DNA from: a virus
Length of the DNA: 24,309 nucleotides
Strand: one strand, 5' to 3'
Virus record (IMG/VR): IMGVR_UViG_3300007351_000054
Span: 1-24,309 of that record
Part shown: one piece after another, positions 7,985 to 24,309 of the stretch
Numbering within the stretch: position 1 is the first letter of the stretch
Layout of the letters: each line of letters begins with the position of its first letter
The notes under the pieces: generated by a model
Seen by the model: the letters and a program-made list of their open reading frames with translations, nothing else
Told to the model about the DNA's origin: nothing
Databases searched by the model: none
Program-made: the position numbers and the translations under genes

Positions 7985-8124
7985 GCAAAAAAGTGGGGTA
8001 TAAGCATAAAAAAGTGAATAGTATGCAATATATCTTTCTTAATATGCACATTGATCTTTTTATTTATATATTGATTTTGAATGATAAATAATTTATTCGA
8101 TTTGCTGTAAACAATCTAAATCAA
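7985..8124. other. AT-rich intergenic spacer between terminase and portal genes
   Basis: This 140-bp stretch is far richer in A and T than any neighbouring gene, with runs such as TTTTTATTTATATATTGATT on the plus strand. No gene is supported. A short reading frame across it lacks a binding site and has poor composition. It may end or insulate the terminase transcript and supply an UP-like element for the promoter at 7956-7984. No convincing terminator stem is visible. Confidence 0.5.
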
Positions 8125-13097: not shown

Positions 13098-13183
13098 TGA
13101 CCAGCCTCCTCCATCTTCATAGGATCTTTCGCCCAACACAGGTCCTCGTCTTGGTTGAAGTAGTGCCAACATAACTTAGTCAT
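13094..13183 (-). CDS. 29-aa microprotein coupled to both neighbours
   Basis: A short frame of 29 codons beginning MTKLCWHYFNQDEDLCW. Its ATG (13183-13181) overlaps the stop of the winged-helix gene as TGATG, and its TGA overlaps the ATG of the zinc-finger gene as ATGA. A gene inserted exactly between two stop-start overlaps is unlikely by chance. GAGG lies about 11 nt upstream. Two cysteines, a histidine and two tryptophans in 17 residues suggest a metal-binding knot or a binding peptide. It could instead serve only to carry ribosomes to the next gene. Confidence 0.5.
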   Translation of the reverse strand: MTKLCWHYFNQDEDLCWAKDPMKMEEAGQ

Positions 13184-13539
13184 CACTGGCCATCCTCATT
13201 CCATTTCCAGTCCTTGATAAAGACGTACAATCCCTTCTTCGGCGGCCTGAACGATCCTGGCTCGATCATCCGGATCAGCTTCGCAATCCGGAGTTCGTTG
13301 ATGTACCGAGAAAAGGCTTTGTGATCCATCTTGCTCGACTCATCCGACGGCCCAAACCGCACCTGGTTCTCGACATTGTTGATGTAGGTCCCATCCGGCA
13401 AACGACGTCTGTATTGGCCACACATGTCGAGGTAAAGCGATCGTGCCGACCTGGATAGGTTTCTCCATGTCTTGCCATTGAGAAGGCCATAGGGAATTTT
13501 TGCGAATTGCTCCTTGCCTTTCTTCCCTTTGTTGCCCAT
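13183..13539 (-). CDS. Winged-helix replication-initiator-like protein
   Basis: A 118-aa protein resembling the N-terminal DNA-binding domain of phage replication proteins (O/RepA-like). FAKIPYGLLNGKTWRNLSRSARSLYLDM is followed by a short turn, a helix pair KMDHKAFSRYINELRIAKLIRMI (a likely recognition helix) and a beta wing, GLYVFIKDWKW. The basic N-terminus (GNKGKKGK) could add DNA contact. It is shorter than a full initiator and lacks a partner-loading domain, so it may be a split replication protein or a regulator. No good binding site is visible before the ATG. The stop overlaps the 29-aa gene. Confidence 0.7.
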   Translation of the reverse strand: MGNKGKKGKEQFAKIPYGLLNGKTWRNLSRSARSLYLDMCGQYRRRLPDGTYINNVENQVRFGPSDESSKMDHKAFSRYINELRIAKLIRMIEPGSFRPPKKGLYVFIKDWKWNEDGQ

Positions 13540-14939: not shown

Positions 14940-15027
14940 TGGCGGAAGGTACAGGATTTGAACCTGTGCAGGTGTTACCCTGGCCTCGGATTAGCAATCC
15001 GGCACCATTCCTCTCGGTCAACCTTCC
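14940..15027 (-). tRNA. tRNA-Ser (anticodon GCU)
   Basis: An 88-nt tRNA. The acceptor strands GGAAGGT and ACCTTCC pair fully, the discriminator is G, and CCA is encoded. The anticodon loop TTGCTAA gives GCU, reading AGC and AGU. A long variable arm and a T-loop with TTCAAAT fit a serine tRNA. The top of the anticodon stem has a C-A mismatch (27:43). G73 is the expected serine discriminator. Confidence 0.93.
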
Positions 15028-15032
15028 CGTAT

Positions 15033-15116
15033 TGGAGGAGGGCAGAGGAGTCGAACCTCTTGAGCTTTTACACTCTACGGTTTTCAGGACCGCTTGCCAC
15101 CGTTGGCATACCCTCC
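15033..15116 (-). tRNA. tRNA-Ser (anticodon UGA), with C33
   Basis: An 84-nt tRNA. The acceptor GGAGGGT pairs with GCCCTCC (one T-G at the base), and CCA is encoded. The stem GCGGT/ACCGT encloses the loop CCTGAAA, which sets the anticodon as UGA, reading UCN-type serine codons. The long variable arm (GAG...CTC) and the T-arm AGAGG-TTCGACT-CCTCT support serine. Two oddities: position 33 is C instead of the near-universal U, and the discriminator is U rather than G. Only 5 nt separate it from the second serine tRNA. Confidence 0.88.
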
Positions 15117-15125
15117 TGAACGTGT

Positions 15126-15347
15126 TCATACTTCCGGCCCCACGTCATAGACTTCTGGATTTCTCATGGAGGACGTAAGGAACATTTTCAATTCCTCGTA
15201 GGTGAGCTTTTCCAACTCGGCTTTCTCCTCAGGATCAAAGGGAACGGTATGGATCAAAACCATCTTCTCACCATCAGAGGTGGTGATCTCGGTTTGGAGA
15301 CATTGATCGAGCATTGCTTTGATTTCCAGGGGAAGAGGTCTCATCAT
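15126..15347 (-). CDS. Small hypothetical protein (73 aa)
   Basis: A 73-aa acidic protein (MMRPLPLEIKAMLDQC..., ending in NPEVYDVGPEV), with a strand-turn centre and a helix EEKAELEKLTYEELKMFL. Its ATG at 15347 overlaps the stop of the transporter gene as ATGATG, with GAGGG 5 nt upstream. The frame is open upstream to 15422, but that part lies inside the transporter gene. It ends 10 nt before the first tRNA. No family is recognised; co-translation with the transporter may mean a shared role. Confidence 0.6.
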   Translation of the reverse strand: MMRPLPLEIKAMLDQCLQTEITTSDGEKMVLIHTVPFDPEEKAELEKLTYEELKMFLTSSMRNPEVYDVGPEV

Positions 15348-15823
15348 TGGCGCCCTCTCAATACCAGTGACCACAGAAACCCTCCTCCCACCTTCGCCGC
15401 GAACTGACCCAATACAATCCACGGCATGAGTACGCCGAAAGCGATTGTGGGAAACAGGATAGAGTCAACAGCACTGCTTCCTAAATTGGAGTAATTCATT
15501 TTCAGGATTCGTTTCTTCTGGAAAAACATCTGATAGAGGATGGCATCCACAATTAAAGCCGCAGCAAAGGCGACCACTGAAGCCACACCGATCATCCCGG
15601 CATTGCTATTAATGATGTAAGTGATTGCAGCTCCAGCGACGACCAGTAGAAACATCTTGAGCGCCAACCCATGACCGTGCCATGCTTCGTGTATACGGTC
15701 CCTTAGACTCAAATCGAAGCCAATCAGGATGAAAGAGTTTACCACCGTTGCTGCTGGTCCGAAGTACGCCGCTGAAAGATTTGCTGCCGTGATCGCCGCT
15801 AGGAAAATCAGAACTGCAAGCAT
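15344..15823 (-). CDS. VUT-family membrane transporter (YhhQ-like, queuosine-precursor uptake)
   Basis: A 159-aa membrane protein with about four or five hydrophobic segments (near residues 1-20, 22-38, 55-75, 78-98 and 115-135). It shows the VUT/DUF165 signature: an Asn in an early helix (ITAANLSAAYFGP), SFILIGFDLSLRDRIHEAW, VASVVAFAAALIVDAILY, and NYSNLGSSAVDSILFPTIAFG near the C-terminus. YhhQ-type proteins carry preQ0/preQ1 across the membrane. Its start lies 16 bp inside the DpdA-like gene, with GAGGAGA upstream, so the two are made together. That pairing supports import of a 7-deazaguanine base for DNA modification. It is a little shorter than cellular YhhQ (about 220 aa). Confidence 0.85.
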   Translation of the reverse strand: MLAVLIFLAAITAANLSAAYFGPAATVVNSFILIGFDLSLRDRIHEAWHGHGLALKMFLLVVAGAAITYIINSNAGMIGVASVVAFAAALIVDAILYQMFFQKKRILKMNYSNLGSSAVDSILFPTIAFGVLMPWIVLGQFAAKVGGGFLWSLVLRGRQ

Positions 15824-16395
15824 GATTGTCTCCTCTCGATACCCTCCATGAAGGCGTTTAATTGATGTTTGTTTCCCCTAAAAAACCCTGTGCCATCCAC
15901 TGAATCAGCACCTATCATCTGCGCCCAATGCAATCGCAGTCCTGTACTCACCCTTCCGATATGAAGGAGAGGAGCCACGCCCTTGAATCGATGAGCATGT
16001 TTCAGTTTCCACTCAGTTGACCCTCCGATGAAACAACAAGTAGCAGTCTGGGGAACGTCCTGGGGTTCCATCCCGTCCTGACAGGCAAAGGCAAGAGGGC
16101 CAAATGGTGCTACGCGAAGATGCCACCTGTGCCAACTCCTGAACGTCCCTTCGGAGTCACCAACAACATCGGGGACAACAATCCAGAGAGGTCGGTGCAG
16201 TTGCAGCGTCCTATGGAGATGTGCCATGAAAGCCGCAGGAATAAAGCCAGTAAATGCTCCATTGTCCAGCGCATAGGGCATATACTCAGGCGGTTTTTTC
16301 CAGTCCCTTGGAGACATGAGCCATCCAATGGAACCCGGATACCTTCCGGCGAAGAAGTGAACGATACCCTTGGCGTTATTTGCTGGCATGATCAT
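15808..16395 (-). CDS. dpdA: DpdA-like DNA-guanine transglycosylase
   Basis: A 195-aa protein related to tRNA-guanine transglycosylases, of the short phage DpdA kind. DpdA swaps guanine in DNA for a 7-deazaguanine such as preQ0, protecting phage DNA from restriction. Motifs in order are MPYALDNGAFTGF (Asp44, in the place of the TGT general acid-base), WIVVPDVVGDSEGTF (72-85), PLAFACQDGMEP, CFIGGSTEWK (121-130), LLHIGRVSTGLRL (143-155), and IGADSVDGTGFFRG, whose Asp164 or Asp167 would be the nucleophile. It lacks the C-terminal zinc site of full-length TGT, as expected for small DpdA. The ATG at 16395 overlaps the previous stop as TGATG; the AAGGAG site is rather far (about 14 nt). The stop lies inside the transporter gene. 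No preQ0 synthesis genes are in the window. Confidence 0.88.
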   Translation of the reverse strand: MIMPANNAKGIVHFFAGRYPGSIGWLMSPRDWKKPPEYMPYALDNGAFTGFIPAAFMAHLHRTLQLHRPLWIVVPDVVGDSEGTFRSWHRWHLRVAPFGPLAFACQDGMEPQDVPQTATCCFIGGSTEWKLKHAHRFKGVAPLLHIGRVSTGLRLHWAQMIGADSVDGTGFFRGNKHQLNAFMEGIERRQSCLQF

Positions 16396-16634
16396 CAACG
16401 TCGATAGCTCTCCTTCTTCGGTTTGTGCTTCGGGCAGTAATCCAGGTCGGGATCGACATGGACGGCGCAGTATCCGCAAAGCGGAGCATCGCAGGTTTTT
16501 CCGTCCCCGATGTCTCCGTCACAAAGGAGACTTGCCGGACTCCCGCAGACACTGCAGGTCTGGATTTTTTGTCGGCCACGGCTACAGATGAAACCTTGGC
16601 TTCCATCAGCCCATTTGAAAGGCGTACACGGCAT
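16395..16634 (-). CDS. Cysteine-rich zinc-binding protein (79 aa)
   Basis: A 79-aa protein with ten cysteines and two histidines in motif order CSVC, CDGDIGDGKTCDAPLC, CAVH, CPKH, a compact two-zinc B-box/ribbon-like pattern seen in small phage proteins. The N-terminus MPCTPFKWADGSQGFIC is a strand leading into the knuckle. A G-rich purine stretch (GAGGGGGG) precedes the ATG by 7 nt. Its stop overlaps the dpdA start, so the two are co-translated, and a helper role in DNA or DpdA binding is conceivable. No proven function. Confidence 0.75.
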   Translation of the reverse strand: MPCTPFKWADGSQGFICSRGRQKIQTCSVCGSPASLLCDGDIGDGKTCDAPLCGYCAVHVDPDLDYCPKHKPKKESYRR

Positions 16635-19189: not shown

Positions 19190-19265
19190 TCCCGTTTTCC
19201 CTCTTCAGCCCGAAATCACTAGTAAATCCCCAACCCCGATAGAAGAAAAGCAACATTTAAGGCGT

Positions 19266-19293
19266 ATTATGCACACCCAAATGGAGATGTCAA
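19266..19293 (-). promoter_or_regulatory. Strong sigma-70-type promoter for the minus-strand arm
   Basis: On the minus strand TTGACA (19293-19288) is a perfect -35 box, followed after 16 nt by CATAAT (19271-19266), five of six to the -10 consensus. The start would be near 19259, giving a leader of about 70 nt to the DUF1643 ATG. This is the best promoter in the window and probably drives early genes. Confidence 0.75.
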
Positions 19294-19439
19294 GACTTTT
19301 CGGGCGGGCTATGCAAAATCTGGATTTTATAGGGAGAAAATTGTGGCGAGTACCCGATTGCCCTGGGAGGGGTGGGGATGCTTTAGGCGAATGGAGGGGG
19401 GGGTATGTTATTGATATTGTTAGATATAATGATAGAACC

Positions 19440-19870
19440 GGATAATAACCTATTATCCAGTCCCATGGTATGATGATTTATCATACCGTCTCAAGTGAGA
19501 CATGTCTCATGATACAGTGAGACACAAGTGGGACAGTCCATTTGACCGGCTGGTATCCCGACACATTGCAATTCTGCAATGTCCTGTATTGCAATAATGC
19601 AATGCAGATATGCAATGCCCTGTAATACATTGGAATAACGATAGCTTATACGAGTGTGTCAAACCTGCCTCAGTGCCCTTGTCCTTGCCTTGCCAGAATA
19701 CCTTGGAATAACAAGCTATTGTAGGTGCTATGGTAAAAAGACCACAGGATATGTGGTAAAAACGCCACAAAAGAGAGCTTTACGCCACATGTTGTGCTAG
19801 CTATGCACGTCTCAAATCCCTTGTGTTATCGCATTGTTGTGCGATACATTCACCATATGTGCATATGTGG
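19440..19870. repeat. Array of at least ten different short inverted repeats
   Basis: Perfect or near-perfect palindromes follow one another: GGATAATA-acc-TATTATCC (19440-19458), GGTATGAT-gattt-ATCATACC (19467-19487), GTCTCA-ag-TGAGAC (19488-19501), TGTCTCA/TGAGACA (19503-19524), CATTGCA-attc-TGCAATG (19564-19581), ATTGCA-ataa-TGCAAT (19588-19603), TGTGG/CCACA (19752-19769), GTGC-tagctat-GCAC (19794-19808), TATCGCA-ttgttg-TGCGATA (19827-19846), and CATATG-tg-CATATG (19854-19867). Arms are 4-8 bp and loops 2-8 nt. The TGAGAC and TGCAAT families each recur. Operators for several repressors, an origin, or a compact hairpin array are all possible. Confidence 0.85.
19624..19712. repeat. Near-identical 16-bp direct repeat pair
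   Basis: AATACATTGGAATAAC (19624-19639) and AATACCTTGGAATAAC (19697-19712) differ at one base and lie 73 bp apart, seven helical turns. ATAGCTT and AAGCTAT just after each copy are inverted relative to one another, so the pair could loop. Two TGGTAAAAA motifs (19731 and 19754) follow. Confidence 0.7.
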
Positions 19871-19922
19871 CATACAGAGTGCATAGGCAACAGGGCAATC
19901 TAGCAAGGAGGGTACAGGGCAG

Positions 19923-20150
19923 ATGGAACACCGAGTAGAGAGAGAGATAAGGAGAGTACAGGGAGAAGGTAGAATCCCCACAATGAAGGGACTTCGTTCT
20001 GCTCTCTCTGATCTCCTCTCAGTAGAGCTTGAAGCATCTCTGGTACTGCTCTCCTTGCAGGGAAGAGTAGTACTGCATCCAGTAGACAGAGAACCGGGAG
20101 CAATGGAGTACATAGGAGTATGGTACGGAGTGGTAACCTTAACCAAATGA
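19923..20150 (+). CDS. Small winged-helix-like regulator (75 aa)
   Basis: A 75-aa basic protein. It reads as a compact winged helix: REIRRVQGEGRIPTMKGLRS (helices 1-2), ALSDLLSVELEASLVLLSLQ (helix 3 and turn), then GRVVLHPVD and a strand GVWYGVVTLT as the wing. AAGGAGGG lies 10 nt before the ATG. It is the first plus-strand gene after the inverted-repeat array and is followed 13 nt on by the sigma-like gene, so it is a good candidate to bind those repeats. An overlapping minus-strand frame is low-complexity and was rejected. The fold is inferred, with no family match claimed. Confidence 0.6.
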   Translation: MEHRVEREIRRVQGEGRIPTMKGLRSALSDLLSVELEASLVLLSLQGRVVLHPVDREPGAMEYIGVWYGVVTLTK

Positions 20151-20163
20151 AGGGAGACAGACA

Positions 20164-21228
20164 ATGGAGCAGAGGCAGACATTGGCAGAAGTACACGCAG
20201 AGATTGAGACGAAACAGACCGAGCTTCACGACTACGTAACATCCAAACTAGCCGCACTGGTAGACCGAAGATCATATCTCACTGACACCTTGACCGGAAT
20301 GGAGACAGAACACTCTTCCCTAATCCATGATAGTTCCATGGATACTGAAGACTCGCTCATTGAATTGACAATCCGGTTTTCAGACAATCCTTATCTGCTC
20401 TTGACTGTGAACGATGTACGTGCATACTGCAAGACCGTTTCAAAAAGGGCAATGCTCAAAGGCGAACAAAAACGGAATGGACTTCTTTCCTTGAACGAAA
20501 CGGATTCGGACGGTGAAACTCACGTCGATATCCCTTCACCTATCGGCATGGTTGGCAGATACGATACGCTGAAGTCAATCATCCTTCACCTTGCACGCAA
20601 ACAAGACGGCCAACCAAGACAAGGAGTAAACCGTAACCATCTGCGCGTTTTCGTTCTGTCCTACCTTTCCGGACATTCTCAAGTTGACATTGCTTCAAAG
20701 ATCAATGTCTCGGTCGATACGGTCAACCGACTGCGCAAAAGGATTGACTCGCTTATCCTGTCCATGCCTTTGAGGGACAATGTTGGCAGGGGATTCGAGG
20801 ATTCACTGAGATGGACACAAGGGAATGGTAGCCCTTCTCCATGGGCAACTGTCCAGGATGAAAACCCCAGTGAACTGATCTCCGTTTCTCCCGATGGATA
20901 CAGGCCGATGCAAGACAATCGACCGGACTACAGAGAATCAAAGCACTATCCCTTGCACCCTCTGAATCCTCCTATTCCTTCCAAGGTTCCATCTTCATTC
21001 CCTGTCAAGGGAACTGACAAGGGTATTGCCAAGGAAGCTCGATACGGCATGGTCTATAACCCCTTCCGGTCACATGCGGCTACCAGTGAGCATACGGCCA
21101 TGTGGCCGTCCAAAGACAAGCCCCGTAAGCCGGTCAACCTGGATGCTTTCACGGACTATCAAACATCCTGGCATGAACCAGAAGCGATTGAATACGTCTC
21201 TGAAGAGCATTTCAAGTCAATCCTGTAA
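20164..21228 (+). CDS. Sigma-70-like transcription factor
   Basis: A 354-aa protein. Residues 1-70 are helical with a coiled-coil feel. Residues 75-125 resemble sigma region 2 and its exit: LLLTVNDVRAYCKTVSKRAML, then LLSLNETDSDGETHVDIP, like the Leu-Asp-acidic linker between sigma regions 2 and 4. Residues 158-195 are region 4-like: NHLRVFVLSYLSGHSQVDIA, then SKINVSVDTVNRLRKRI, a helix-turn-helix. The remaining 150 residues are Pro/Ser/Lys-rich and not recognised. It would direct polymerase to phage promoters or act as a regulator. AAGGGAG precedes the ATG by 7 nt. A terminator follows. The resemblance is by pattern; a transposase- or RNA-polymerase-independent DNA-binding role is the alternative. 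Confidence 0.65.
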   Translation: MEQRQTLAEVHAEIETKQTELHDYVTSKLAALVDRRSYLTDTLTGMETEHSSLIHDSSMDTEDSLIELTIRFSDNPYLLLTVNDVRAYCKTVSKRAMLKGEQKRNGLLSLNETDSDGETHVDIPSPIGMVGRYDTLKSIILHLARKQDGQPRQGVNRNHLRVFVLSYLSGHSQVDIASKINVSVDTVNRLRKRIDSLILSMPLRDNVGRGFEDSLRWTQGNGSPSPWATVQDENPSELISVSPDGYRPMQDNRPDYRESKHYPLHPLNPPIPSKVPSSFPVKGTDKGIAKEARYGMVYNPFRSHAATSEHTAMWPSKDKPRKPVNLDAFTDYQTSWHEPEAIEYVSEEHFKSIL

Positions 21229-21245: not shown

Positions 21246-21277
21246 AACCGGGTAGCCTTAGACTACCCGGTTTTTTT
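21246..21277 (+). terminator. Rho-independent terminator after the sigma-like gene
   Basis: The stem AACCGGGTAG (21246-21255) and CTACCCGGTT (21263-21272) around a 7-nt loop is followed by a run of seven T (21271-21277). It is a textbook intrinsic terminator, 18 nt after the stop codon. Confidence 0.93.
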
Positions 21278-21347: not shown

Positions 21348-21527
21348 ATGAAGAGAAAGGAGAGAGAAAGATTGAATAAGAAGTCCCTTTACAAAACTGC
21401 CGTATGGCATGGGGAATATGTTTCCCTTTTGAAGTATTTCGAAAAGGGGGACTATTTCCATGTCAAAACCCAGTCAGGTGATATTTACGGCATTCCTAGC
21501 CATGAAATGACTGGGTTTTGCCTTTAA
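21348..21527 (+). CDS. Small hypothetical protein with beta-barrel-like core (59 or 51 aa)
   Basis: The core LYKTAVWHGEYVSLLKYFEKGD, then YFHVKTQSGDIYGIPSHEM, reads like a small SH3- or KOW-type barrel. Two starts compete. The ATG at 21348 has GAGG 12 nt before it and gives 59 aa. The TTG at 21372 has AAAGGAG 9 nt before it and gives 51 aa, and fits better with the purine-rich leader. It lies between a terminator and the giant RNA candidate, and its 3' third carries a 13-bp inverted repeat (see 21464-21520). The function is unknown. Confidence 0.55.
   Translation: MKRKERERLNKKSLYKTAVWHGEYVSLLKYFEKGDYFHVKTQSGDIYGIPSHEMTGFCL
21464..21520 (+). other. 13-bp perfect inverted repeat inside the small gene
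   Basis: CAAAACCCAGTCA (21464-21476) is exactly matched by TGACTGGGTTTTG (21508-21520). Both arms are coding (Lys-Thr-Gln-Ser and Met-Thr-Gly-Phe). The right arm is followed by CCTTTAA and then the RNA region. It could be a terminator-like or processing hairpin for this short transcript, or the 5' boundary of the RNA. Confidence 0.7.
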
Positions 21528-21529
21528 CC

Positions 21530-22610
21530 CCCGATAGCCCTGGCGCTTGGGCTTGAATCTGTGCGCGGTGTCTGCCGGTCTCGACCATACTGAGACCGGA
21601 TGAATGGAGCCCGCGAGCTTGACGGTTCGCGGCCTGCATTCAGTCTCGATACCGGTTAATCCCGGTCTTGACTGAGGACCAAAGTCCTTGTACTCGGGCT
21701 GTCTGACGGCTGGCCATCCGCCCCGTTCTTGGCAATCCATATGGGTTCAAGGCGAGCTGCCTGCGAGTCAGCGCAGGGTAGTTCTGGGAGCTGCCGGTTA
21801 GTCCCGGGCTCGATCCAACCAGAACGAGCATGAAGGGATCTGCGACCTGGATGAATCCCGCCGGTCATGAATCCAGGCCAAGGCGCGTTGACTGGTCGTC
21901 GAACACCACGACGTAAACCAAGGTGGGGGCTTGCTTCGGCCTGACAAAATGGAGTGCGCGGGGTTCCGCGGTCTATCAGGTGCCCTCTGGGCTTAAAATG
22001 CCTGACTGCCATCCCTACCATGCGCAACGGGTAGCTTTTGCAGACTCCCCGGTCTTGCATGGGTGCGATTTCTAGGTCTGCATAGTCCAAACCTCACGGA
22101 CGATAAACAAGAGGCGGCCCGTGCTTCGGGCGAAAGTCCAGCTGTACCTGGCAAGGGTGGTTCTCTCTGCCAGCAAAATCTGTGAAACAACCCCCGGGCC
22201 CACCGGGTAATGTGCGGACGTGGATCTGTTCTTGGATCTGCGGCCATAGCACCTGAGATGGTGCGCTGAATAGGAAAATATCGACTCGTGAGCTGAAGGG
22301 AGAGTATTCCGGAAAATCTCTGGAAAATGCTCCGACCTTGGCCAGCTTGGGCGGGAGAACGAGCGCGATCCTCAGAAATTCTGGGAAAAAACCTGGATGC
22401 TGTGATCGAGTCGAGACGATACTGGACGGCGTGCTGTGACCTTGTGTTGTGGTTGCTGGGAAAAGAACGGTGAAACGACCCTCCGAACTCCAAGGGGGGA
22501 GAGTCTTGGCTCATGGATACGCTGCAAATGGTGTCGAATGCCGACGCTTGAACAGAGCCATGGAAAAGATTCTTCCCCTTTCTTCTTCAGGCTCGTTGAG
22601 TCTGAATAAA
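21530..22610 (+). ncRNA. Candidate giant structured non-coding RNA (about 1.08 kb)
   Basis: No believable gene lies here, yet it folds into a chain of stems. Examples: CCGGTCTC/GAGACCGG (21575-21599); TGAATG/CATTCA enclosing CCGCGA/TCGCGG (21601-21642); TCAGTC/GACTGA (21640-21675); AGGAC-CAAA-GTCCT (21675-21688); GTTCTGG/CCAGAAC enclosing GAGC/GCTC (21781-21825); CCTGGAT/ATCCAGG (21846-21877); TCAGG/CCTGA around GCCC-tct-GGGC (21976-22005); TGCAGAC/GTCTGCA (22039-22082); GCCCG/CGGGC (22117-22131); CTGGC/GCCAG (22148-22173); CCCGG/CCGGG (22193-22207); GCACC/GGTGC (22249-22264); TTCAGGCTC-gtt-GAGTCTGAA (22586-22606). U-G pairs in AATCC/GGGTT (21734-21747), TTGCA/TGCGA and the last stem fit only plus-strand RNA. 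Size, ornateness and a phage setting recall GOLLD and ROOL RNAs; class membership is unproven and the ends are approximate. Confidence 0.65.
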
Positions 22611-22841: not shown

Positions 22842-22988
22842 ATGGACATTCTGAACAATCCGGGAATTGGCGGATTGGTTGGCGTCGCGGCGGTATGCCT
22901 GCTGTCCATCGGGATCATCCTGAATGGACTGTGGCAGTACTGGAAATTCCGCAGAGGCTTGAAGAAACGGATGTATCCGCGTGGATAG
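22842..22988 (+). CDS. 48-aa single-pass membrane protein
   Basis: A frame of 48 codons. MDILNNPGIGGLVGVAAVCLLS begins it; residues 8-30 form one membrane helix, ended by Trp-Gln-Tyr-Trp. The basic tail (KFRRGLKKRMYPRG) should stay in the cytoplasm. AAAAGGAGG lies 11 nt before the ATG. An upstream in-frame start (22773) would add a poor, hairpin-encoded segment and was not used. Small membrane proteins of this form serve as holins, exclusion factors or toxins; which applies here is unknown. Confidence 0.6.
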   Translation: MDILNNPGIGGLVGVAAVCLLSIGIILNGLWQYWKFRRGLKKRMYPRG

Positions 22989-22997
22989 ACCACGATT

Positions 22998-23058
22998 GGG
23001 GAAATTCAGTATGACATTTTGTCATACCGGAAATTTCTCCACTGGTGCTCTATGCACC
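22998..23058 (+). ncRNA. Structured RNA element 1 in the parB leader
   Basis: GGGGAAATT (22998-23006) pairs with AATTTCTCC (23032-23040), enclosing the perfect hairpin GTATGAC-atttt-GTCATAC (23009-23027). After a 3-nt ACT comes GGTGC-tctat-GCACC (23044-23058). The outer stem uses one G-U pair that fits plus-strand RNA. A related outline recurs in element 2, sharing the block TTTCTCCACTGGTG. Confidence 0.6.
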
Positions 23059-23082
23059 TGTCTGCCTGTCTGTCTTTCCTCC

Positions 23083-23106
23083 CTGGTGGCCTGCCGAGGC
23101 TACCAG
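23083..23106 (+). other. Hairpin between the two RNA elements
   Basis: CTGGTGGCCT (23083-23092) and AGGCTACCAG (23097-23106) form a 10-bp stem with one G-U pair and a GCCG tetraloop. No T-run follows, so it is not an intrinsic terminator; it probably belongs to the structured leader. Confidence 0.55.
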
Positions 23107-23107
23107 C

Positions 23108-23265
23108 GGGGAAATTCCTGCACCACGGATTTAGGCTTTTACCGTGGGTACTCCGCCATGCGGTTCGAGTCCGCACGGAGCTTGCTGAGATGATCGGCCG
23201 TGAGCCTCAGCAGGTAGCCCGGCATGGTGCTGGCCTGGAATTTCTCCACTGGTGTCCTTGACACT
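23108..23265 (+). ncRNA. Structured RNA element 2, multi-branched, with a T-arm-like hairpin
   Basis: An 11-bp closing stem, GGGGAAATTCC (23108-23118) with GGAATTTCTCC (23237-23247), encloses four further stems. These are CCACGG/CCGTGG (23123-23147); CTCCG/CGGAG around TGCGG-TTCGAGT-CCGCA (23151-23180), whose inner part looks like a tRNA T-arm; TGCTGAG/CTCAGCA (23183-23212); and AGC/GCT near 23216-23231. After ACT comes GTGTC-ctt-GACAC (23252-23264). It repeats the closing stem and trailing hairpin plan of element 1. Confidence 0.65.
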
Positions 23266-23375: not shown

Positions 23376-24309
23376 ATGGAAAGAAAGCCGAGAACAAAGA
23401 AGCAACCGGAGATCATCTCTCCGGTGGTCGTGGTGGCTGCAGCACTGGCTGAAGCCGAGAAAACCGTGGTCTCCATCGCTGACCTGCGCATGATCCCGGT
23501 CTCGAAAATCCATCTGGACCCGAATCAGCCAAGAGAGGTTTACAACAAGGCCTCGATCGCGGAGCTGGCCGAATCCATGATCAAGAACGGATTCGATGTT
23601 GGCTTTGCCATCATCGTCCGCCCTCATCCGGAAATCGCCGGGGAATTCATGGCGATTGTGGGTCACAGGAGAACATTGGCCGCGAAGGAAGCGAAGCTCT
23701 CGGAAATCCCATGCCAGATGAGGACCGATCTCTCCGAACAAGGGATCTATGAGTTGCAACTTCTGGAAAACGAGAAGCGCCAGGATCTCACCATCATGAA
23801 CAGGGTGAGGGCAACCCAGCGTGGCCTCGATCGCGGCATGACCCTGGAAAGACTGGCCGAGGTTTTCACGGTGTCAGTCGCAACGCTCCAGAAAGATCTT
23901 GAGTTGCAGTCCCTCTCGAAAGACCTCCACGTCCATGTGGATGAGGGACGGATCTCGAAAGACGTTGCCCGGAAATTGGCCACTTCCCCGCTCATAAGCG
24001 AATCCCAGCAGTTGTGGGCCTGGAACAACCTTCTGAGAGACAAGCGTACTTCGGCGGCCATGGTGGCAGCGTTGGACGCCTACCTCGACAAGCTCGCTCA
24101 GAAAGACCTGTTCGCGGATGCGAAAAAGGCCGCTGCGGACAATGGCGGGCTCATGAAGATCCGAAAGGCCTCCGTGGCCCTACAGAAAAGCATCGTCGAG
24201 TTCGAGAAAAGGAACTACCACACCGACCCCAACGTGGTGAGCGCCAGGAAAAACGAGTTGCCTACACTGAAGCAGCTTGTCGCATCCCTGGAACGAATCG
24301 CCAAGGGAA
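23376..24309 (+). CDS. parB: ParB-family partition/regulatory protein, 3' end outside the window
   Basis: The frame is open from the ATG at 23376 through 311 codons to the window edge. Residues about 38-120 form the ParB N-terminal domain: IPVSKIHLDPNQPREVY, IAELAESMIKNGF, IVRPHPEIAGEFMAIVGHRR (with GHRR in the place of the GERR motif) and LSEIPCQM. A LQLLENEKRQDLTIM segment, the ENxxR box, follows. A helix-turn-helix lies near 150-180 (GMTLERLAEVFTVSVATLQK). ParB proteins bind centromere-like sites, often with CTP, for segregation; phage copies may instead act as regulators or nucleases. No parA is visible. GGAGG lies about 10 nt before the ATG inside a structured leader. Confidence 0.88.
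   Translation, partial: MERKPRTKKQPEIISPVVVVAAALAEAEKTVVSIADLRMIPVSKIHLDPNQPREVYNKASIAELAESMIKNGFDVGFAIIVRPHPEIAGEFMAIVGHRRTLAAKEAKLSEIPCQMRTDLSEQGIYELQLLENEKRQDLTIMNRVRATQRGLDRGMTLERLAEVFTVSVATLQKDLELQSLSKDLHVHVDEGRISKDVARKLATSPLISESQQLWAWNNLLRDKRTSAAMVAALDAYLDKLAQKDLFADAKKAAADNGGLMKIRKASVALQKSIVEFEKRNYHTDPNVVSARKNELPTLKQLVASLERIAKG

Follow-up and report, generated by a model that had tools for sequence, protein, structure and literature searches.

What purpose could be served, in a phage genome, by a string of unlike inverted repeats packed into the gap between two diverging sets of genes? The question is raised by positions 19440-19870 of the IMG/VR virus record IMGVR_UViG_3300007351_000054 (24,309 bases, linear, without end repeats), which was analysed over its full length and is hereafter called the window. 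The leftward genes comprise a head and packaging block (terminase, portal, S49-type protease and capsid), followed by the genes of SSB, a KhpA-like protein, a radical-SAM protein and DUF1643, and they reach about position 19190. The rightward genes begin with a 75-aa ORF at 19923, which is followed by the gene of a 354-aa protein. The palindromes occupy the non-coding gap between these two operons, in DNA of 43% G+C as compared with 52.6% for the window. The 75-aa protein has no match in Pfam, PHROG or NCBIfam, and its single-sequence structure model, of low confidence (mean 55.5), has a helix-helix-strand-strand order; the model of the 354-aa protein is also of low confidence (mean 39.5).

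The occurrence of many palindromes in this divergent region, as announced by the original prediction, was confirmed with all the coordinates checked. Within 19440-19870, we counted 11 exact inverted repeats with arms of at least 6 bases and spacers of at most 8 bases, eight of them non-overlapping, whereas 1000 dinucleotide shuffles of the same stretch gave 1.1 on average and never more than 6. Similarly, there are six repeats with arms of at least 7 bases (shuffle mean 0.3, maximum 3) and three with arms of at least 8 bases (shuffle mean 0.09), the excess being only mild for non-overlapping repeats with arms of at least 5 bases (8 versus 3.4; p 0.014). A count no higher than that of shuffled sequence had been named beforehand as the outcome that would tell against the string, and the palindromes clearly exceed it. 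Furthermore, 6 of the 18 repeats with arms of at least 7 bases found in the whole 24,309-base record fall in this stretch, which makes up 1.8% of its length. In palindrome density the stretch ranks third in 1.75 Mb (144 loci from relatives plus the window), and one of the two denser stretches, in the relative L114, is a non-coding region that repeats a single palindrome, CCGGTT-N3-AACCGG.

The features of the stretch and of its surroundings are collected in Table 1.

Table 1. Positions of the features discussed in the text, numbered from the first base of the window.
Feature	Position	Strand	Remarks
118-aa protein (p118), candidate DNA-binding part of an initiator	13183-13539	-	homology to a protein of L083
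Sigma-70-type promoter match, 11 of 12	19266-19293	-	best promoter match nearby, outside the palindrome string
Perfect DnaA-box match, TTATGCACA	19267-19275		overlaps the leftward promoter match
A+T-rich stretch flanking the arrays	19404-19458		candidate unwinding element
TATAAT hexamer, possible rightward -10	19425-19430	+	no recognisable -35; no paired promoter called
Inverted repeat GGATAATA-ACC-TATTATCC	19440-19458		within the A+T-rich stretch
GTCCCAT, degenerate further half-site	19460-19466	-	faces TGGGAC at 19529; pairs with 19528-19534
Inverted repeat GGTATGAT-N5-ATCATACC	19467-19487		
TGAGACA array, candidate iterons	19487-19535		six heptamers with at most one mismatch, both orientations
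Inverted repeat ACATTGCA-N4-TGCAATGT	19563-19582		part of the CATTGCA array
CATTGCA/TGCAATG array, candidate second iteron or operator set	19564-19617		five half-sites, both orientations
Two direct copies of the 16-mer AATACMTTGGAATAAC	19624-19639, 19697-19712	+	73 bp apart
Two direct copies of TGGTAAAAANRCCACA	19731-19769		
Inverted repeat ACCACA-N5-TGTGGT	19741-19757		in the region of the TGGTAAAAANRCCACA copies (19731-19769)
Inverted repeat TATCGCA-N6-TGCGATA	19827-19846		over a weak promoter-like spacer
Inverted repeat CATATG-N2-CATATG	19854-19867		
75-aa ORF, possibly a small winged-helix protein	19923-20150	+	first gene past the palindrome string
354-aa protein with a sigma-70 region-4-like HTH	20164-21228	+	Pfam Sigma70_r4_2, E 3e-5, below the curated cut-off
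Terminator-like inverted repeat	21246-21272		after the rightward 75-aa/354-aa genes
ParB-like protein	23376-24309		ParB_N E 1.5e-13; TIGR00180 3e-22; gene runs off the end of the record

The core of the stretch consists of two arrays of short half-sites, TGAGACA and CATTGCA, both of which occur in the two orientations. Six TGAGACA sites stand in 49 bp where 0.14 would be expected (from 70 sites in the window), and these, together with the five TGCAAT half-sites, are repeated beyond chance. More generally, the count of 6-mers repeated at least three times is 16, as compared with 7.2 in shuffles (p 0.002); of 230 stretches elsewhere in the window, 3 attain this figure. These repeats modify the original prediction, according to which the palindromes are all unlike and follow each other every 20-60 bp. 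Several families are indeed present, but GTCTCA/TGAGAC and ATTGCA/TGCAAT each occur five times, in both orientations, and there are two pairs of direct repeats. The spacing is uneven, 19604-19740 holding no repeat under the limits of arms of at least 6 and spacers of at most 8 bases. On the other hand, the statement that these are not the operators of a single repressor holds, since the sites do not share one sequence and comprise two or more half-site families as well as single palindromes. Of the two promoter elements that had been pointed out, the TATAAT is real, with the first palindrome starting 10 bases after it, but it lacks a -35, and the palindrome said to lie exactly between a -35 and a -10 shares two bases with the proposed -10 (TACATT, 19845-19850).

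Relatives were collected through terminase and portal alignments (80 loci each), yielding with L002 a total of 144 loci, of which 110 are independent as judged by shared 30-mers. The closest portals (L003-L005) are 76% identical, and their contigs stop short of the palindrome region. Apart from the query's own contig, no close relative was detected by blastn or tblastn in phages, in plasmids, or by exact peptide scans; tblastn with the capsid protein gave two weak matches, and the portal was found in three short MAG contigs among genome contigs. None of the early genes directly beside the string is common to the relatives' loci, save for a single distant homologue of the 354-aa protein (357 aa; pairwise E 1e-6) in the full record of the relative L149.

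The original prediction would have been refuted by the loss of all palindromes in close relatives, a comparison that we ran on single motifs in distant ones. At least four TGAGACA sites within 400 bp occur in 4 of the 110 independent loci (L083, L112, L114 and L057, the last being the same region as L117), in DNA that reads as non-coding, and the other motifs show no comparable recurrence in the relatives' loci: GTATGAT does not recur, and CATTGCA forms no cluster of at least four sites in 400 bp in the 110 loci. As controls, none of 420 permutations of the heptamer otherwise reaches four loci, and one other of 2240 heptamers with three G+C does so. Because about six motifs of the window were examined, the recurrence of TGAGACA in relatives is only moderate after correction. 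Taken by itself, the DNA of the window's TGAGACA array has no match in phages, and that of L083 has merely three, to Lactobacillus phage records at E 10.

It is the clusters of the heptamer, and not the palindromic pairs, that discriminate the family. Palindromic pairs alone were rejected as a family mark: TGAGAC-N0-12-GTCTCA occurs in 3 of 38 records (reversed control, 3 of 38) and GTCTCA-N0-12-TGAGAC in 4 of 38 (reversed control, 1 of 38), and the pairs of two records (G030 and G020) fall within coding ORFs. In the seven rows of the window's phage family, the surroundings of the TGAGACA arrays contain 25 palindromes of other sequences, where about 4.1 are expected (window, 4; L170/L114, 8; L068, 5; L112, 3; L117, 2; L157, 2; L176/L083, 1), as compared with 20 in the remaining 28 rows, where about 11.1 are expected. 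Therefore, the array is accompanied by unlike palindromes in several members of the family, with sequences that vary from one member to the next.

All IMG/VR viral contigs were then scanned with the pattern TGAGACA-N0-12-TGTCTCA-N0-12-TGAGACA and, as a control, with the reversed motif. The pattern was found in 48 stretches versus 2 for the control, and just 2 of the 48 (L157 and L176, the latter being L083's contig) carry the terminase and portal of the window's family; L170 is L114's contig, which ends before the terminase and portal genes. The 48 stretches form 37 groups, 31 of which have at least four sites within 400 bp; the other six have three sites each, which may be due to chance. In 7 of these 31 independent groups (L159, L166, L177, L185, L190, L191 and L204), the array lies within one long ORF with a wHTH-like N-terminus. 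Five of these ORFs have strong matches to replication-initiation, O-like or DnaD-like PHROGs (L159, 3e-17; L177, 5e-25; L190, 4e-20; L191, 1e-24; L204, 2e-24), that of L190 also matching Pfam Phage_rep_O (5e-18); L185 has a weak match to an initiator family (0.04) and L166 has none in Pfam or PHROG. In all seven ORFs the first site stands 25-46% into the ORF, just past the N-terminal wHTH, and the sites of each ORF are spread over two or three reading frames; therefore, what is conserved is a DNA motif and not a peptide. In the other 24 of the 31 loci, the array lies outside an initiator-type ORF, and none of 10 neighbouring proteins sampled from nine such loci is an initiator, one of them being a CI-like repressor (L186) and another a DNA methyltransferase (L167). 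The matches of plasmids to the array stretch of L190 are weak. A limited literature search found no earlier statement that one heptamer is common to the initiators of unrelated phages, which would be new; the operator of KfrA (PMC7783346), which was also considered, is a different one.

From the presence of TGAGACA arrays within replication-initiator-type genes of unrelated viruses, and judging by sequence comparison, we favour, with evenly balanced confidence, the proposal that the stretch serves as a replication origin and control region of the iteron type, placed between divergent operons. Of the three readings offered at the outset (sites for several regulators, an origin, or a hairpin-based element), the origin is thus the best supported and the hairpin one, at the RNA level, is weak; the other motifs may in addition be sites for several regulators. 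In the proposed mechanism, a winged-helix initiator would bind the TGAGACA heptamers (19487-19535), and perhaps also the CATTGCA heptamers (19564-19617). The bound initiator would bend and open the adjoining A+T-rich stretch, and the replication machinery would then be loaded. As for the other palindromes, they would act as operators at which the divergent promoters are regulated, or as sites of a second initiator. The A+T content is 70% at 19400-19449 versus 47% in the window, the most A+T-rich place of the record being elsewhere (about 8006-8080). The cumulative GC-skew minimum of the record, at 19237, is 270 bases from the TGAGACA array but coincides with the change of gene direction, which the skew also tracks in the window; in L114, L112, L177 and L159 the skew minima are far from the array.

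The initiator itself can be proposed through a homologue in L083. The protein p118 of the window shares 37% identity over 103 aa with L083:2682-3041. This L083 protein has matches to HTH_36 and to DnaD-like/initiation PHROGs, and its contig also bears the TGAGACA array, so that p118 is a candidate initiator through this homologue only. Against the origin proposal, the array of the window is not within an initiator gene, and the gene of p118, which has no family match of its own, lies 6 kb from it. In a scan of 48 records from relatives, HTH_36 was detected in eight; of the four array-bearing records, only G002 gave a match, and G003, G004 and G005 gave none.

The lambdoid origin is situated midway along gene O (PMC7466680, PMC6022878), with iterons that are each an inverted repeat, plus an A+T-rich tract (PMC7466680). 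The stretch resembles it in having several short sites in a row, an inverted-repeat character and an A+T-rich tract alongside, and the arrays of L159, L177, L190, L191 and L204 are at the corresponding place in genes matching O-like or DnaD-like families. The window differs from ori-lambda in that its array lies in non-coding DNA among other palindromes, with heptamers in both orientations, and its candidate initiator gene is not adjacent. None of the O-like genes of eight named phages that were inspected holds TGAGAC sites. On inspection, four of them (Caldibacillus CBP1, Sphingopyxis VSN-002, Microcystis Mvi-Yong1342-1 and Pseudomonas LESphi3) have clusters of a heptamer, in 4-7 copies, just past the wHTH, which differ from TGAGACA (GTAAGCA, CCCCGCA, CCGAAGC and GGGTGCA, respectively), and the other four show no clear heptamer cluster.

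The position of the stretch also suits a hub of transcriptional control without origin function, in which operators for several phage and perhaps host regulators would serve the divergent operons, with TGAGACA as the operator recognised by some widespread regulator. The divergent intergenic location with its strong leftward promoter match, the two putative DNA-binding proteins encoded immediately rightward, the CI-like repressor adjoining the array in L186, and the location of most arrays of other viruses outside initiator genes are all consistent with such control. We nevertheless regard it as possible but rather doubtful, for it leaves unexplained why arrays stand at the same relative place within initiator-type genes in 7 of 31 loci; as a single operator system it is excluded by the presence of at least two half-site families. 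The operators of lysis-lysogeny switches, of the lambda oR/oL type, are likewise divergent and intergenic with several palindromes, and their sites share one sequence; the window differs from them by its several site families, and no CI/Cro-type pair was identified beside these. It is improbable, in our view, that the palindromes are instead the hairpins of a structured RNA leader of about 490 nt, running rightward from the TATAAT at 19425-19430 and controlling the 75-aa/354-aa operon. For the + strand of 19432-19922, the predicted fold lies well below those of shuffles (z -8.9; -6.5 in a same-range comparison), a closing stem (19460-19466/19528-19534) encloses three hairpins, and, when G-U pairs are allowed, there are 8 hairpins of at least 8 bp on the + strand versus 4 on the - strand (shuffle mean 1.05 each), a weak lean to the + strand. 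An RNA leader was given up as the main reading when the contrast between z -8.9 (+) and -4.3 (-) proved to come from different ranges: with one range used for both, the - strand is nearly as low (z -5.5 versus -6.5), a strand difference of just 1.5 sd. Since both strands fold far below shuffles, we read the folding as a symmetry of the DNA and keep the RNA as a rival. Moreover, half-sites that recur in identical form are what one expects of DNA sites, not of hairpins, the TATAAT has no -35, and no Rfam family matches at the gathering score, the six sub-threshold matches being of unrelated kinds and far below it.

A last alternative, which we hold to be very improbable, is a centromere-like site for partition by the ParB-like protein with a ParB_N domain that the record encodes at 23376-24309, its gene running off the record. 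A TGAGACA array does lie a few bases from TGTTCCACGTGGAACA, which we take to be the canonical chromosomal parS, at 8266-8311 of L182, an unrelated locus in a viral contig. However, a scan of the stretch with what we take to be the parS consensus, a TGTTYCACGTGRAACA-like 16-mer, found no site with fewer than four mismatches, the best, at 19487, having four.

Other parts of the record and of its relatives deserve mention in their own right. A region of about 1 kb (about 21500-22500) without a convincing ORF folds in a strongly one-sided manner on the + strand, with z -6.4 (+) versus -3.5 (-) at 21533-21703 and -7.3 versus -1.8 at 22220-22475. It has no Rfam match at the gathering score and a single 35-base blastn match among the loci (L195, E 0.03), and it is a candidate for a large structured phage RNA, judging by these predicted folds. 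Further on, 23009-23260 contains repeats such as CCGGAAATTTCTCCACTGGTG (two copies, 90%) with local hairpins, and 22951-23150 has a folding z of -6.0 on both strands. Two adjacent tRNA-Ser genes (anticodons gct and tga) lie on the - strand at 14940-15116. A queuosine-precursor-transporter-like protein (Vut_1, E 9e-7; 15344-15823) is encoded beside a PHROG_15826 protein (15808-16479), which looks like a DpdA-type transglycosylase, and these neighbours possibly serve a 7-deazaguanine DNA modification. In L149 (200-635; L155, 2204-2635), 24 consecutive 18-bp units of consensus TGAAYNNNRTTCA stand upstream of the gene of this relative's 357-aa homologue of the 354-aa protein, which hints at a second array of the iteron type in the corresponding position; we set it aside as evidence for an origin, as an 18-bp period leaves reading frames uninterrupted and the repeat may be decayed coding sequence.

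A broader proposal, which we consider unlikely though worth stating, is that TGAGACA is a shared iteron code, used by unrelated phages because their initiators have a DNA-reading domain in common, and placed within an O-like initiator gene in some of them and in a non-coding string of palindromes in others. The family of the window would then have relocated its origin from the initiator gene to a separate hub of several kinds of sites. The origins of uncultivated phages are rarely located, and, if such a code were true, they could be found by a search for heptamer arrays alone. The ratio of 48 stretches to 2 also provides a large set for testing the co-evolution of initiator specificity and site. 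Iteron origins are an already known kind, of which that of the window would most likely be a new case in an uncultivated family. If the array does work as iterons, the phage family of the window would have a non-coding origin built of several families of sites.
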